40,210 nt of DNA from a virus: positions 1-40,210 of the IMG/VR virus record IMGVR_UViG_3300046011_000964; one strand, given 5' to 3'. Each line of letters begins with the position of its first letter. The first letter of the stretch is position 1. This document shows positions 2,177 to 8,838 of the stretch, piece after piece. The translations under genes were made by a program, and so were the position numbers. The notes beneath the pieces are model-generated. The model was not told the origin of the DNA, did no database searches, and saw only the letters and a list, made by a program, of their open reading frames with translations.

Positions 2177-3127
2177 ATGAGCACTATACCTGAATCTACA
2201 AACTCAATTACAAACCTGATTGACAGCTACCACGCTGCAAAGACTGAAGCCCCACGCGCCCACCTTGGAGCCTCTACATTAGGCCATCATTGCGAGCGTT
2301 GGCTCTGGCTATCGTTTCGCTGGGCGGTGCTAGAACAGCATCCCGGTCGCATTAAGCGCCTGTTTCGTCGCGGCCAAAATGAAGAAGCAACCATTGTGCA
2401 AGACTTAAAAGCAATCGGTGTAAATGTACACAGCGAACAGTACCGCGTGGACTTTGGTTCGCATGTTAGCGGGTCAATTGATGGCATTGCGTCTGGTGTG
2501 CCAGGTGCGCCAAAGACTGAGCATGTGGTGGAGTTTAAAACTCACAGCAAAAAATCATTTGATGATTTAGACAAAAACGCCGTACAAAAATCTAAACCGA
2601 TGCACTATACCCAGATGCAGGTTTACATGCACGGCCTAAAGCTAGACCGCGCCTTGTATGTGGCAGTGTGCAAAGACGATGATCGCATTTATACAGAGCG
2701 CATCCACTACGATGCAGAGCATGCAGAAAAAGCAATTGCTAAAGGCCACCGTGTAACAATGTCCGATTACATACCGGCACCATGCAGCACTGACCCTACA
2801 TGGTACGAATGCAAGATGTGTGCGGCGCATGATTTTTGCCATGGCTCGAAAACCACAAAGCAAGTCAATTGCCGCACTTGTGCACACATTACGCCATTGC
2901 AAGATAGCACAATGCATTGCGCCAAGTGGGATTCTGTAGTCCCAACTGAGGCGCAAATAGCAGGATGTGATAGCCACGTTTTTCACCCTGATCTAGTGCC
3001 GTGGAAGCGACTAGAAAGCCCTAGCGACATGATAGCCGTGTATCTTATCAATGGTGCCGAATACGCTAATGGTGAGCCGGTAGAAGGCGTTTACAGTTCC
3101 GCGCAATTATTGGAGTTAGCAAAATGA
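2177..3127 (+). CDS. PD-(D/E)XK nuclease with predicted Fe-S cluster (Cas4/AddB-like)
   Basis: 316 aa. ATG 2177 is chosen over an in-frame ATG at 2138 because AAGGA lies about 10 bases upstream and the 2138 start would overlap the helicase-methyltransferase gene. RecB/Cas4-like nuclease signatures are visible: S33-x5-C39-x-R41, E68, D102 in 'SGSIDG', E119-F-K121, and Q146/Q148 in 'TQMQVY'. The cysteine pattern C39 ... C212-x2-C215-x5-C221 matches the split four-cysteine [4Fe-4S] site of Cas4 and AddB. Extra C-terminal cysteines (C232, C235, C248, C264) may form a second metal site. It probably processes DNA ends for the Sak4-type recombination pathway encoded upstream on the circle. The nuclease fold is well supported; the cluster is inferred. 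Confidence 0.82.
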   Translation: MSTIPESTNSITNLIDSYHAAKTEAPRAHLGASTLGHHCERWLWLSFRWAVLEQHPGRIKRLFRRGQNEEATIVQDLKAIGVNVHSEQYRVDFGSHVSGSIDGIASGVPGAPKTEHVVEFKTHSKKSFDDLDKNAVQKSKPMHYTQMQVYMHGLKLDRALYVAVCKDDDRIYTERIHYDAEHAEKAIAKGHRVTMSDYIPAPCSTDPTWYECKMCAAHDFCHGSKTTKQVNCRTCAHITPLQDSTMHCAKWDSVVPTEAQIAGCDSHVFHPDLVPWKRLESPSDMIAVYLINGAEYANGEPVEGVYSSAQLLELAK

Positions 3128-3225
3128 TGATGTTGTATCGTTTTTATAAGATGTACCGCAACTTTGGATGCACCCGAATCGAAGCTTTGCGCCGCGCTAA
3201 TCGCCAGGTTAAATACCATGCATAA
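3124..3225 (+). CDS. Small basic hypothetical protein (33 aa)
   Basis: A 33-aa ORF beginning MMMLYRFYKMYRN, overlapping the nuclease stop by ATGA. GGAG lies 8 bases upstream (3112-3115) and the ORF ends just before the Shine-Dalgarno of the next gene. It is rich in Arg, Tyr and Lys, with a helical 'RIEALRRANR' segment. Position, ribosome site and coupling support translation. No function is recognised. Confidence 0.6.
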   Translation: MMMLYRFYKMYRNFGCTRIEALRRANRQVKYHA

Positions 3226-4063
3226 GGAGCATTTAAATGAGTTGGCTTTATTCGCGGGCGCTGGTGGAGGAATACTTGGCGGAAAACTGCTTGGATGGCG
3301 AACAATCTGCGCAGTTGAATGGGAACCATACCCAGCTAGCGTATTGTGCGCACGACAAAATGACAGCATTCTCCCGCCTTTCCCGATTTGGGATGACGTA
3401 CAAACCTTTGACGGAAAACCTTGGAGAGGAATTGTTGATGTTGTATCTGGCGGATTTCCGTGCCAAGACATTAGCGCAGCAGGAAAAGGAAAAGGACTTG
3501 ACGGAAAGCGAAGCGGGATGTGGCGCGAAATGGCACGAATTATTAGCGAAGTACGACCCAGATTTGCATTTGTGGAAAATAGCCCAATGCTCACTACTCG
3601 CGGAGGAACAAGAGTTATTGCAGATCTTACCCAAATCGGGTATGACTGCAAATGGATTGTTATTGGAGCTTCCGATGTTGGAGCGCCGCACCAAAGAAAG
3701 CGTATATGGATTGTGGGCAACTCCAACAACAATGGACAAATTGCCCCCGAAGTCAGAAAAGGCGCTACACAAGGAAGCAACTCAAGCAAGGCCAGGGCGA
3801 AGCAAACCAGCGAATTTACGAGATCAAGTAAGCAATATGCACAATTGGCCAACACCGACCGCGCACAATGCAAAGGAGACAAATGCACCCAGCGAAGCCA
3901 ATCGGAATACTCCGACATTGGCGAATCAAGTTGGTGGGAAACTGAACCCGATGTGGGTAGAGTGGCTGATGGGGTGGCCGCTAGGGTGGACAGACTTAAA
4001 GCCATTGGTAACGGACAAGTGCCATTGTGTGCAGCTACCGCATGGAGATTGTTAAATGCTTAG
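3218..4063 (+). CDS. dcm: DNA (cytosine-5) methyltransferase
   Basis: 281 aa from ATG 3218, which puts motif I close to the N-terminus as usual; an in-frame ATG at 3164 is possible but would add residues inside the preceding small gene. C5-methylase motifs are clear: FAGAGG (12-17), catalytic PCQ with C82, ENS (120-122), QRKRIWIV (159-166), and KAIGNGQVP near the C-terminus (261-269). The target-recognition region between motifs VIII and IX is short. The protein would methylate cytosine in phage DNA, probably as anti-restriction. There is no strong Shine-Dalgarno before 3218. Almost the whole gene is overlapped in the +1 frame by another long ORF (3237-4055) that has the better ribosome site. 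The gene overlaps the next helicase gene by 8 bases. Confidence 0.9.
   Translation: MHKEHLNELALFAGAGGGILGGKLLGWRTICAVEWEPYPASVLCARQNDSILPPFPIWDDVQTFDGKPWRGIVDVVSGGFPCQDISAAGKGKGLDGKRSGMWREMARIISEVRPRFAFVENSPMLTTRGGTRVIADLTQIGYDCKWIVIGASDVGAPHQRKRIWIVGNSNNNGQIAPEVRKGATQGSNSSKARAKQTSEFTRSSKQYAQLANTDRAQCKGDKCTQRSQSEYSDIGESSWWETEPDVGRVADGVAARVDRLKAIGNGQVPLCAATAWRLLNA
3237..4055 (+). CDS. Overlapping-frame protein embedded in the cytosine methyltransferase gene
   Basis: 272 aa, beginning MSWLYSRALVEEYL, read in the +1 frame relative to the methyltransferase over nearly its entire length. AAGGAG (3224-3229) sits 7 bases before ATG 3237, the best ribosome site of this locus. The stop TAA abuts the next gene's ATG (TAA|ATG at 4053-4058), as expected for a coupled operon gene. 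From memory, a protein family with the same start and internal phrases such as 'GLWATPTTMD', 'ARPGRSKPANLRD' and 'WVEWLMGWPLGWTDLKPL' recurs in phages and prophages, sometimes mislabelled as methyltransferase. That recurrence argues for real coding, but I could not search. No catalytic motif is recognised; a role in methylation or target specificity would be guesswork. Confidence 0.7.
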   Translation: MSWLYSRALVEEYLAENCLDGEQSAQLNGNHTQLAYCAHDKMTAFSRLSRFGMTYKPLTENLGEELLMLYLADFRAKTLAQQEKEKDLTESEAGCGAKWHELLAKYDPDLHLWKIAQCSLLAEEQELLQILPKSGMTANGLLLELPMLERRTKESVYGLWATPTTMDKLPPKSEKALHKEATQARPGRSKPANLRDQVSNMHNWPTPTAHNAKETNAPSEANRNTPTLANQVGGKLNPMWVEWLMGWPLGWTDLKPLVTDKCHCVQLPHGDC

Positions 4064-5642
4064 AAAATATCAACAACGTGCTATTGACCAGCTATACGCA
4101 TGGTTTGCAGCGGGTAACGATGGCAACCCGTGCCTAGTTTTGCCCACTGGTGCAGGTAAAAGCCACATTGTGGCCGCGCTATGCAAGGGTATCTTGCAAG
4201 AATACCCAGATCAGCGCATTTTGATGTTAACGCATGTGAAAGAGCTGATACAGCAAAATGCTGAAAAGATGCGCCAACATTGGCCTAACGCGCCGATGGG
4301 TATCTATAGCTCTGGTTTGCGTTGTAAAGAACTAGGAGAACCGATAACCTTTGCCGGCATACAATCAGTGGCTAAACGTGCCGCTGAAATAGGTCATGTG
4401 GACATTGTAATCATTGATGAGTGCCATTTGGTTAGCCACAAAGATGAGGGAGGGTATAGAACGCTATTAGCGGCCTTGCAAGCCATTAATCCAGCATTGC
4501 GGGTAGTTGGATTGACCGCTACTCCGTACCGCTTAGGCCACGGTTTAATCACGGATGCGCCTGCTTTGTTTAGCGCATTGATTGAGCCGGTGAGCATTGA
4601 GGAGCTAATTTTTAAAGGATATTTATCAAAGCTGCGAAGCAAGATAACTAAGGCCAAACTGTCCACTGAGGGTGTGCATAAGCGAGGCGGTGAATACATC
4701 GAATCAGAGTTGCAAGCTGCCGTCGATACAAACGACAAGAATCAATCTATTGTTAGCGAAGTAATCCGGTTAGCCGGTGATCGCAAATCATGGTTGTTTT
4801 TCTGCTCTGGTGTTGACCATGCGCGCCATGTGCAAGAGGTTTTAAGCGCGCATGGCATTACATCGGCCTGCGTAGTTGGAGATACGCCGGACACCGAACG
4901 TGCGCGCATACTTGCTGATTTTAAGGCGGGTAAGATTAAAGCCTTAACTAATGCCAATGTGCTTACTACCGGATTTGATCATCCTAGCATTGACCTGATT
5001 GCCATGATGCGCCCCACTATGTCGCCAGGGCTATACGTGCAAATGGCCGGCCGAGGTTTACGCATTGCAGACGGTAAAACAGATTGTATGGTGTTAGATT
5101 TTGCCGGTGTAGTTGACCAGCATGGGCCGATTACAGCCGTAAAACCTCCGCCAAAGAAGGGCGATAAAGTAGGCGAAGCGCCGGTTAAAGTTTGCGAACA
5201 ATGTCAAGAAATTGTGCATATTAGCTGTAAGATATGCCCAGCATGTGGTGCTGCTTTTCCTGAGATTGAAAAGCCAGCGTTAAAGCTGCATAACCTAGAC
5301 ATCATGGGCATAGAAGGTATTGATCTGGACGTTACAGCATGGCAATGGCGCAAGCATATCAGCCGTGCAAGCGGTAAAGAGATGCTCGCAGTTACTTACT
5401 ATGGCGCGCTGTCAGATACGCCTGTAACAGAGTATTTAACGGTCATGCATGATGGTTACGCCGGTGAAAAAGCAAGGCGTTTGCTAGCTGTGCTAGCAGA
5501 TCAATCCAGCGCCACGCTTGACTATTCAATCGCTGACATACAGCAACATGCCGACGTTTTAAACCTAGCCAATGCCCCAGCCGCTATTGAATATAAAAGC
5601 GAAGGTAAATTTTTTACAATAATGAAAAGGACTTTTCAATGA
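4056..5642 (+). CDS. SF2 DEAD/DEAH-like helicase with C-terminal zinc ribbon
   Basis: 528 aa. Helicase motifs in order: Walker A PTGAGKS (30-36), DECH (121-124), TATP (154-157), a C-terminal RecA-like domain with 'LTTGFDHP' (about 303-310) and motif VI QMAGRGLR (329-336). It resembles the RAD25/type III restriction-like SF2 helicases of phages. A CxxC...CxxC zinc ribbon follows (C380, C383, C394, C397), and then a C-terminal domain of unknown role. It probably unwinds DNA during replication or recombination, since its neighbours are nucleases and methyltransferases. It starts immediately after the embedded ORF's stop and overlaps the next gene by ATGA. Confidence 0.9.
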   Translation: MLRKYQQRAIDQLYAWFAAGNDGNPCLVLPTGAGKSHIVAALCKGILQEYPDQRILMLTHVKELIQQNAEKMRQHWPNAPMGIYSSGLRCKELGEPITFAGIQSVAKRAAEIGHVDIVIIDECHLVSHKDEGGYRTLLAALQAINPALRVVGLTATPYRLGHGLITDAPALFSALIEPVSIEELIFKGYLSKLRSKITKAKLSTEGVHKRGGEYIESELQAAVDTNDKNQSIVSEVIRLAGDRKSWLFFCSGVDHARHVQEVLSAHGITSACVVGDTPDTERARILADFKAGKIKALTNANVLTTGFDHPSIDLIAMMRPTMSPGLYVQMAGRGLRIADGKTDCMVLDFAGVVDQHGPITAVKPPPKKGDKVGEAPVKVCEQCQEIVHISCKICPACGAAFPEIEKPALKLHNLDIMGIEGIDLDVTAWQWRKHISRASGKEMLAVTYYGALSDTPVTEYLTVMHDGYAGEKARRLLAVLADQSSATLDYSIADIQQHADVLNLANAPAAIEYKSEGKFFTIMKRTFQ

Positions 5643-5830: not shown

Positions 5831-6126
5831 CTATCAAACGCAACAACAAGATGCTTGCTATTTGCAAAGCATTGGAAACTGTACAACCTGCAAAATATCA
5901 GGCCATAACTGCCGCATATGGCATGGCATGTGAAAAGCATGTTCATACATACCTAAAGCGCGCTATCAGCTATGGCCTGATGCACAAAGATGCAAACCTG
6001 CTTTACACGCTAACAGCCAACTGGAAAGAGATCATTGCTAAACCGATGGAATTGCAAGATGTATATGTACCTCAACCTGCACGTTTTAAACGCGTATCTA
6101 GCGTGTGGGACTTAGCCCATGCTTGA
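5827..6126 (+). CDS. Hypothetical protein, possible winged-helix DNA-binding (TTG start)
   Basis: 99 aa. The start is TTG 5827, overlapping the previous stop as TTGA, with a strong GAGGAG (5813-5818) 8 bases upstream; the first in-frame ATG (5851) has no comparable site. Residues about 8-50 read as three helices followed by a 'YGLMHKDANLLYTLT' wing-like segment. That is compatible with a winged helix-turn-helix and hence a DNA-binding or regulatory role. The fold assignment is by eye only. It overlaps the VRR-NUC gene by 8 bases. Confidence 0.7.
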   Translation: MTIKRNNKMLAICKALETVQPAKYQAITAAYGMACEKHVHTYLKRAISYGLMHKDANLLYTLTANWKEIIAKPMELQDVYVPQPARFKRVSSVWDLAHA

Positions 6127-6478
6127 TAAAGTACCAAGCGAGCATTACGAACAATCTATGTTTGTGCAATGGTTTAGACGCACTTATCCTGATGTGCTTA
6201 TCTTTGCCATACCTAACGGTGGTGCTCGCAGCATCACTACAGCAGCCGCGCTCAAGGTCGAGGGTGTCACTAAAGGCATACCCGATCTATTTATCCCAGC
6301 TTGGCGTTTGTGGGTTGAGATGAAGCGCATTAAAGGTGGAGTTGTAAGCCTCGAACAAAAAAACGTTAAAAAGTACCTTGAAAGTGTTGCAATGTGTGTT
6401 ATAGTTTGCAAAGGTGCTGAGGATGCTAAGATGCAAATTCAGCAATTCTTACAAACGATAAAGGAACCAAGTGATTAA
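6119..6478 (+). CDS. VRR-NUC domain nuclease
   Basis: 119 aa, the usual length of stand-alone phage VRR-NUC proteins. PD-(D/E)XK-type landmarks: E11, PNGG (32-35), GIPD (53-56) with D56, E67-M-K69, and 'SLEQK' (77-81). These proteins are Mg-dependent structure-specific nucleases that often sit beside SF2 helicases in phage replication modules, as here. It probably resolves branched DNA. The 8-base overlaps with both neighbours show tight translational coupling. Confidence 0.88.
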   Translation: MLDKVPSEHYEQSMFVQWFRRTYPDVLIFAIPNGGARSITTAAALKVEGVTKGIPDLFIPAWRLWVEMKRIKGGVVSLEQKNVKKYLESVAMCVIVCKGAEDAKMQIQQFLQTIKEPSD

Positions 6479-8025: not shown

Positions 8026-8192
8026 ACTACAAACCAGCTCTTGAATATGCAGGTTTTATTGTTTTGTCAGACCTAGTTACACGGTTGAAAGAACATGCAA
8101 AAACTACATCAAACCTGAACCTTGCATGTGATATAGCAATGGCAGCAAGTTTGATTGAAAATCTTTTAAAGGGTGCTGATGACTTCAAATAA
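8022..8192 (+). CDS. Small hypothetical protein (56 aa)
   Basis: ATG 8022 overlaps the preceding stop as ATGA. The sequence is predicted all-helical ('LVTRLKEHAKTT', 'ACDIAMAASLIENLLKG'). Its 3' end overlaps the start of thyX and supplies AAAGGG (8168-8173) as that gene's ribosome site. No function recognised. Confidence 0.6.
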   Translation: MNYKPALEYAGFIVLSDLVTRLKEHAKTTSNLNLACDIAMAASLIENLLKGADDFK

Positions 8193-8838
8193 CGTCAAAT
8201 TAGTATGGTCTACGCCCGATGCAGATGCAATGATTGCCGAGATTGCGCGTGTATCCAATCCCGATAATCAAAAGAATCCAAACATCGAGGGTTTGCTAAA
8301 GTACATGATGCGGGAAGGTCACGTAAGTCCTTTTGAAATGGCTAACGCTTGCGTCGAGATTACGACAACCCGCGATATTGGCCGACAGATTTTGCGCCAT
8401 CGCTCATTCAGTTTTCAGGAATTTAGCCAAAGGTATGCAAACGTTGATAGTTTGCCTGATGCGCAGTTACGTGAGTGTCGCTTGCAAGATACTAAGAACC
8501 GTCAGAACAGTATTGCAACGGATGACTATGAGCTAACCCAGACATGGGAACTAGCCCAACAAACCATATTAAAAGAAGCGCATACCGCTTACCAGTGGGC
8601 ACTTGAACAAGGCATTGCTAAAGAACAGGCAAGGGCATTCCTGCCCGAAGGCTTGACCACTTCCCGTATGTACATGAACGGCAATATTCGTAGCTGGATT
8701 CACTACCTACAAAGCAGACTGCATGAATCGACCCAAAAAGAGCATCGGGATATTGCGGTTGAAGTTCTGGCAATCTTACGCAAAGTTGCACCTGTAACAA
8801 TGGCAGCGTTTTTTCAAGCAACTAAGCCTGTAAGATAG
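8179..8838 (+). CDS. thyX: FAD-dependent thymidylate synthase ThyX
   Basis: 219 aa. ATG 8179 is preferred over GTG 8173 because AAAGGG (8168-8173) lies 5-6 bases before it. The ThyX signature RHRSFSFQEFSQRY (73-86) matches RHRxxSxxxxSxRY, which binds FAD and dUMP; 'RAFLPEGLTTSRMYMNGNIRSW' carries further conserved residues. The enzyme makes dTMP from dUMP using methylene-tetrahydrofolate and NADPH, supplying nucleotides for phage replication. It is the last gene of the rightward arm, and its end overlaps the convergent endolysin gene by 25 bases. Confidence 0.95.
   Translation: MTSNNVKLVWSTPDADAMIAEIARVSNPDNQKNPNIEGLLKYMMREGHVSPFEMANACVEITTTRDIGRQILRHRSFSFQEFSQRYANVDSLPDAQLRECRLQDTKNRQNSIATDDYELTQTWELAQQTILKEAHTAYQWALEQGIAKEQARAFLPEGLTTSRMYMNGNIRSWIHYLQSRLHESTQKEHRDIAVEVLAILRKVAPVTMAAFFQATKPVR

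Follow-up and report, generated by a model that had tools for sequence, protein, structure and literature searches.

Results

Organization of the locus

The window analyzed here is a 40-kb virus record, in which the genes that flank the methyltransferase locus encode a Cas4-type exonuclease and a helicase. Two frames on the same strand, designated A and B, are open across this locus, and the features that bear on them are listed below.

3091–4005, minus strand: antisense ORF of 304 aa under the locus
3124–3225, plus strand: 33-aa ORF (MMMLYRFYKMYRNFGCTRIEALRRANRQVKYHA), with its stop codon (3223–3225) just inside the A start
3218–4063, plus strand: frame A, a predicted C5-cytosine methyltransferase large-domain protein (ATG 3218, stop at 4063, 281 aa)
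3224–3229, plus strand: Shine-Dalgarno sequence AAGGAG for B, within the first codons of A and 7 bases 5′ of ATG 3237
3237–4055, plus strand: frame B (+1), a 272-aa overlapping protein, the putative small domain or target-recognition subunit
3242–3283, plus strand: motif I of A (LALFAGAGGGILGG), with the B N terminus (MSWLYSRALVEEYL) read from the same DNA
3248–3772, minus strand: antisense ORF of 174 aa under the locus
3449–3466, plus strand: motif IV of A, GGFPCQ, with the catalytic cysteine C82, which is invariant in 65 relatives
3692–3718, plus strand: motif VIII region of A, QRKRIWIVG, which closes the conserved N-terminal part of A
3714–3932, plus strand: cassette array of B (WATPTTMDKLPPK... 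and WPTPTAHNAKE...), the candidate target-recognition modules
3728–3931, plus strand: frame-swap region, in which A is near-neutral and without consensus and B is strongly constrained
3933–3998, plus strand: motif IX-like sequence of B (GGKLNPMWVEWLMGWPLGWTDL), with an invariant core in 67 B proteins
3986–4024, plus strand: motif X of A (VDRLKAIGNGQVP), which shares part of its DNA with the motif IX-like sequence of B
4056–5642, plus strand: ResIII/DEAD helicase gene, whose ATG adjoins the B stop and which overlaps the end of A

Frame B runs from ATG 3237 to the TAA at 4053–4055, so that its junction with the helicase gene (ATG 4056) reads TAAATG. The reading frame of A extends open upstream of ATG 3218, and the 33-aa ORF connects the stop of the exonuclease gene to the start of A, where it may couple translation of A to that of the upstream gene. 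A first-pass annotation of this DNA had reported the two open same-strand frames, the AAGGAG site 7 bases from ATG 3237, and the abutment of the B stop on the next gene, and all of these were recovered at the positions given above. A search for sigma-70 promoters or terminators local to the locus yielded none above chance.

The two antisense ORFs, which the first-pass annotation did not mention, were considered as genes and rejected, because antisense stops in 69 relatives are as numerous as the null predicts, and both ORFs are therefore incidental. The 174-aa ORF weakly matches phrog_28355, which is probably itself a mis-called ORF. Elsewhere in the window, all on the plus strand, an ORF open to the window start (1–2175) fuses a SNF2/DEAD-type helicase with an N6/N4 DNA methylase domain, a weak VRR-NUC match that falls under its cut-off lies at 6119–6478, and a ThyX-type thymidylate synthase is encoded at 8173–8838 (PF02511, 8e-43).

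Frame A resembles a C5-cytosine methyltransferase that lacks motif IX

Judged by its homologies, frame A is a C5-cytosine methyltransferase. It matches phrog_363 (DNA methyltransferase) at 2e-70 and PF00145 at E = 6e-35, the latter over profile positions 5–214 only, which comprise motifs I–VIII. The match to M.HaeIII and M.HhaI (1e-14 for M.HaeIII) is likewise restricted to motifs I–VIII. In an alignment of 65 A proteins, motifs I–VIII and X are largely invariant, and the catalytic C82 in PCQ shows no variation among the 65 relatives. These proteins have no consensus in the region between motifs VIII and X, and neither the alignment nor a motif-IX PSSM located a conserved motif IX-like window in A. 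The first-pass annotation had credited this frame with all C5-methylase motifs, which is incorrect: the PF00145 and M.HaeIII/M.HhaI matches end with motif VIII, and of the remaining two motifs X is present and IX is absent.

Frame B is open and under selection in relatives of the locus

Two scans of viral sequences were performed, one queried with B and the other with A alone; the A-selected set does not favor B. As a null for constraint exerted by A alone, synonymous codons were permuted within each gene, which retains the A protein and its codon usage. Frame B is fully open in 68 of the 69 unique A-selected loci, compared with 0.04 expected from the shuffles, which predict 5.8 stops per gene in this frame. 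The N-terminal, middle, and C-terminal parts of B contain 0, 1, and 0 stops, respectively, against expectations of 99, 159, and 142, and the +2 frame is open at none of the 69 loci. For 40 disjoint close pairs, the dNN/dNS of B is 0.30 (bootstrap 0.26–0.35) versus 1.53 for the control frame, where changes are counted by their effect in each frame and the estimate is an approximate, OLGenie-style one with few double-silent sites. The N-terminal part of B gives values of 0.53–0.66 with intervals below 1. These ratios point to purifying selection on A and on B alike.

The +1 excess is absent from 11 canonical single-frame chromosomal C5 enzymes, and two-frame coding as a general property of C5-methyltransferases was rejected on this basis. 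Database searches with B matched phrog_1008 (labeled DNA methyltransferase) at 9e-23; no family was returned from Pfam or NCBIfam, and a PDB sequence search gave no match.

The start signals are arranged in two main ways. The A start lies exactly 4 nt 5′ of the B ATG in 92 of 118 loci (66 as ATGAATG and 26 with GTG or TTG), and a single ribosome site can thus serve both frames. In another 21 loci, including the window, A starts further upstream, and the B ribosome site falls within or just before the first codons of A. The B ATG is conserved in 113 of the 118 loci, and a Shine-Dalgarno match of at least 4 is found at 86% of B starts in relatives versus 22% of random positions. At certain loci B begins further upstream (MSWLISKAL...), and the MSWLxSxAL opening is retained there on different DNA, a sign that these residues are important in their own right.

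Hundreds of diverse relatives share the two-frame arrangement, and A and B stand in the +1 register at every locus that carries both parts, chromosomal/MAG loci included. The +1 frame is longer than in the shuffles in all 16 diverged records tested (p = 0.0005–0.02), which include Paenibacillus, Mycobacterium SG4, Lacticaseibacillus, Bacteroides, Nodularia, Synechococcus, Edwardsiella, Vibrio, and a Leptospira plasmid, as well as the unannotated fecal record MT838282, an approximate case in that its coordinates cross a stop. Significant loci numbered 60 of 62, 14 of 16, and 33 of 34 in scans of the Fitz, SG4, and Bacteroides/marine clades, with dNN/dNS values of 0.39, 0.57 (from 4 pairs only), and 0.37, respectively, against 1.4–1.7 for the control. 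Thus, the proposal in the first-pass annotation that the locus is dual-coding, and its placement of B in a family found in other phages and prophages, are both supported: homologues of B occur in viral and chromosomal/MAG loci, the frame remains open in diverged loci, and its dN/dS ratio is not near 1. On these comparative grounds, we hold that the locus is dual-coding and that B is a real, conserved protein.

Existing annotations nearly always list one of the two proteins, which in most records is A. Pseudomonas phage phPA-G has only B annotated, and Paenibacillus phage Shelly has both proteins, with B carrying the note 'g55 internal gene'. At five loci (L147, L187, L188, L196, and L212), A is broken by a stop or frameshift with B open, or the frames swap partway; these interruptions could reflect decay, assembly error, or recoding.

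Constraint shifts from frame A to frame B beyond motif VIII

Over motifs I–VIII, the rate per site is 0.076 for changes that affect only A and 0.251 for changes that affect only B, such that A is constrained and B only loosely so. In the stretch from motif VIII to motif X (3728–3931), the corresponding rates are 0.486 for A-changing/B-silent, 0.371 for double-silent, and 0.120 for B-changing/A-silent sites. A is under no visible constraint in this region and is near-neutral. The A-only and B-only rates are closer to each other in the motif X stretch.

Over the same motif VIII–X region, B is a string of cassettes, each starting with [W/F]xTP (xPTP cassettes). Among 116 B proteins we counted 79 cassette clusters and 78 cassette orders, and the same cassette is found at different positions. 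The array looks like a recombining specificity region, which would give B a role in target recognition.

B ends in a motif IX-like sequence

The B protein ends with the motif IX-like sequence LNPMWVEWLMGWP, and the family pattern LNPxWVEWLMGWPxGWTDL has an invariant core in the 67 B proteins compared. With the motif-IX PSSM, which was derived solely from canonical enzymes, the commonest best window in four clades is LNPxWVEWLMGxP, located at 82–89% of B; scores are modest for each B protein, and A has no comparable focus. No significant match emerged when B was compared by hhalign against canonical C5 enzymes, and homology is therefore argued from position and pattern rather than from a strong profile score. 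AlphaFold predictions of A alone and of B alone are poor (pLDDT 46) and so provide no fold in support of B as a small domain; the model of A nevertheless matches M.HhaI over part of the catalytic domain. By its position and pattern, the motif IX-like sequence in B appears to occupy the slot that is missing from A.

In a chromosomal/MAG group (L210, L214, L226, and L240), motif X (DPADTGDVPR...RLKAIGNGQVP) comes after motif IX of B without a change of frame, and A terminates soon after motif VIII in L210, L214, and L226. The four loci are partly de-overlapped forms. At L250 (1120–2037, minus strand), which belongs to a different C5-methyltransferase lineage, the +1 frame has 222 codons (p = 0.002), matches PF00145 by itself, and ends in a canonical-looking motif IX (VRRMLPSEYERLQGFPKNWT). 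Motif IX in one frame overlies the motif X DNA of the other frame.

A second type of overlap

A different overlap is present in loci L446–L449 and L450–L609, which represent the Streptococcus, Solobacterium, and Rctr41k clades. The +1 ORF of this type encodes 140–220 aa, spans approximately A codons 30–217, and was found in 71 of 71 Streptococcus phages and in 65 of 75 members of the Rctr41k clade. Its dNN/dNS values of 0.39 for Streptococcus (control 1.20) and 0.37 for Rctr41k (control 1.28) indicate purifying selection. Because A often retains an in-frame motif IX in this type while B is selected, B cannot be a mere carrier of motif IX everywhere. The second-type B terminates in an LSDILE...KYYLS segment, which we take to be the segment that ordinary C5 enzymes carry in frame directly behind motif VIII. 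Both types would be accounted for if B supplied part of the small domain.

Discussion

A proposed two-frame methyltransferase

We propose that a single C5-cytosine methyltransferase is divided here between two polypeptides, which are translated from overlapping frames of the locus and form a heterodimer, and we assign this reading a probability of roughly 0.78. A and B would then probably be the catalytic and DNA-recognition halves of a single DNA-methylating enzyme. A would supply the large catalytic domain with motifs I–VIII and X, and with it AdoMet binding and catalysis. B, translated from its own ribosome site, would supply the small domain with the target-recognition cassettes and motif IX. 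The two proteins would assemble as a heterodimer that methylates phage DNA, and this methylation probably counters host restriction. That both frames are translated, that A binds B, that the cassettes set specificity, and that the enzyme has an anti-restriction role are inferred from the comparisons described above.

Three other accounts of B were weighed against this proposal. One is that B is not translated at all and is open through codon bias or through conservation of the A protein; in its favor, four frames of the region are long by eye. Codon bias or composition as the source of the openness is ruled out by the synonymous shuffles, which preserve A and its codon usage yet leave only 0.04 of 69 loci open where 68 were observed, together with the +2 control frame and the antisense frames, in which stops are not depleted. 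The B-specific dN/dS signal and the 11 canonical enzymes without a +1 excess argue in the same direction, and this account has next to no chance of being correct. We also consider it very unlikely that a programmed ribosomal frameshift near motif VIII fuses motifs I–VIII of A to the recognition region and motif IX of B, with no separate N-terminal half of B. The change in constraint just after motif VIII does fall where slippage would have to act. However, the N-terminal part of B contains 0 stops against 99 expected in 69 loci and has a dNN/dNS of 0.53–0.66 with intervals below 1, its ATG is conserved in 113 of 118 loci with a strong ribosome site, and the fused product would be left without motif X.

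The remaining account is that B is an unrelated overprinted protein, such as an anti-restriction factor or a regulator, whose motif IX-like end is coincidental. The lack of a Pfam or NCBIfam family, the nonsignificant hhalign result with canonical C5 enzymes, and the selection on B in second-type loci where A already carries motif IX are all as this account would have them. Nevertheless, coincidence would have to explain why motif IX is missing from A exactly where B bears a look-alike, why motifs IX and X follow one another in a single frame at L210, L214, L226, and L240, and why the +1 frame of L250 holds a clear motif IX. Furthermore, A is near-neutral where recognition should sit, and B is constantly paired with A. 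We therefore judge an unrelated B to be unlikely.

The heterodimer proposal bears on how the overlap is viewed. The first-pass annotation had suggested that an old enzyme gene was overprinted by a new protein, and had treated a partner or specificity role for B as speculation. Canonical chromosomal enzymes lack B, whereas B bears enzyme-like motifs and spans many phage lineages. Dual coding stands, but the notion of B as a new protein is not supported in that form, since its C terminus resembles the missing motif IX and recognition region, and the chromosomal/MAG group has motif IX followed by motif X, so that B looks like the other domain of the enzyme. A partner or specificity role is now the best-supported function for B. 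We lean slightly toward a broader version of the proposal, in which phage C5-methyltransferases are commonly two-frame, with superimposed catalytic and recognition domains, often with ATGAATG starts in which two ATGs 4 nt apart share one ribosome site, recognition shuffled as the xPTP cassettes of B, and A drifting as a linker.

Cloning and annotation treat the C5-methyltransferase of a phage as one gene, and B is missing from most annotations. If this broader version is true, what very many phage records call a 'DNA cytosine methyltransferase' would be half an enzyme, and if B is required, activities and specificities assigned from A alone would be wrong. Selection can be seen to change frame along this long overlap, and across the recognition region one frame is near-neutral, which makes the locus an exceptionally clear case in which to study the origin and persistence of overlapping genes. 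Swappable cassettes would also offer a compact means of altering DNA-methylation specificity.

Comparison with known split methyltransferases

A C5 enzyme divided between two polypeptides, the second of which bears motif IX, is already known. As far as the literature consulted shows, the new elements are the whole-gene overlap, its spread among phages, the frame-specific selection by which recognition falls to B, the cassettes, and the second type of overlap; our literature search found no paper that describes the overlap family. B-type (+1-frame) proteins are collected in phrog_1008 under a methyltransferase label, and the overlap is not described there.

In M.EcoHK31I, the 176-aa beta polypeptide is encoded within the 309-aa alpha gene in another frame. 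This enzyme (YGGCCR), the experimental precedent for the proposal, carries motifs I–VIII and X in one chain and motif IX in the other, and its predicted recognition domain is placed in the large subunit (PMC3404938). The large chain A similarly has motifs I–VIII and X without IX, and motif IX would reside in the second chain, B; the likeness is one of motif layout and of gene overlap. Unlike the beta polypeptide, B extends over the entire gene, from motif I onward, and often starts 4 nt after A. Recognition is assigned here to B rather than to the large subunit by frame-specific selection, and the proteins form a phage-wide family with shuffled cassettes. The split C5-methyltransferase M.AquI (CYCGRG) also divides the C5 motifs between two polypeptides, but its small subunit contains motifs IX and X and only part of the variable region (PMC3404938), whereas motif X remains in A at the present locus. 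The L210, L214, and L226 forms are nearer to M.AquI. In M.HhaI-like enzymes, the large domain comprises motifs I–VIII and X, and the small domain comprises the recognition region and motif IX (PMC3404938). Monomeric M.HhaI and M.HaeIII, unlike A, have a single chain that includes both the recognition region and motif IX, and the proposed division between A and B falls exactly along the line between the large and small domains of these enzymes.
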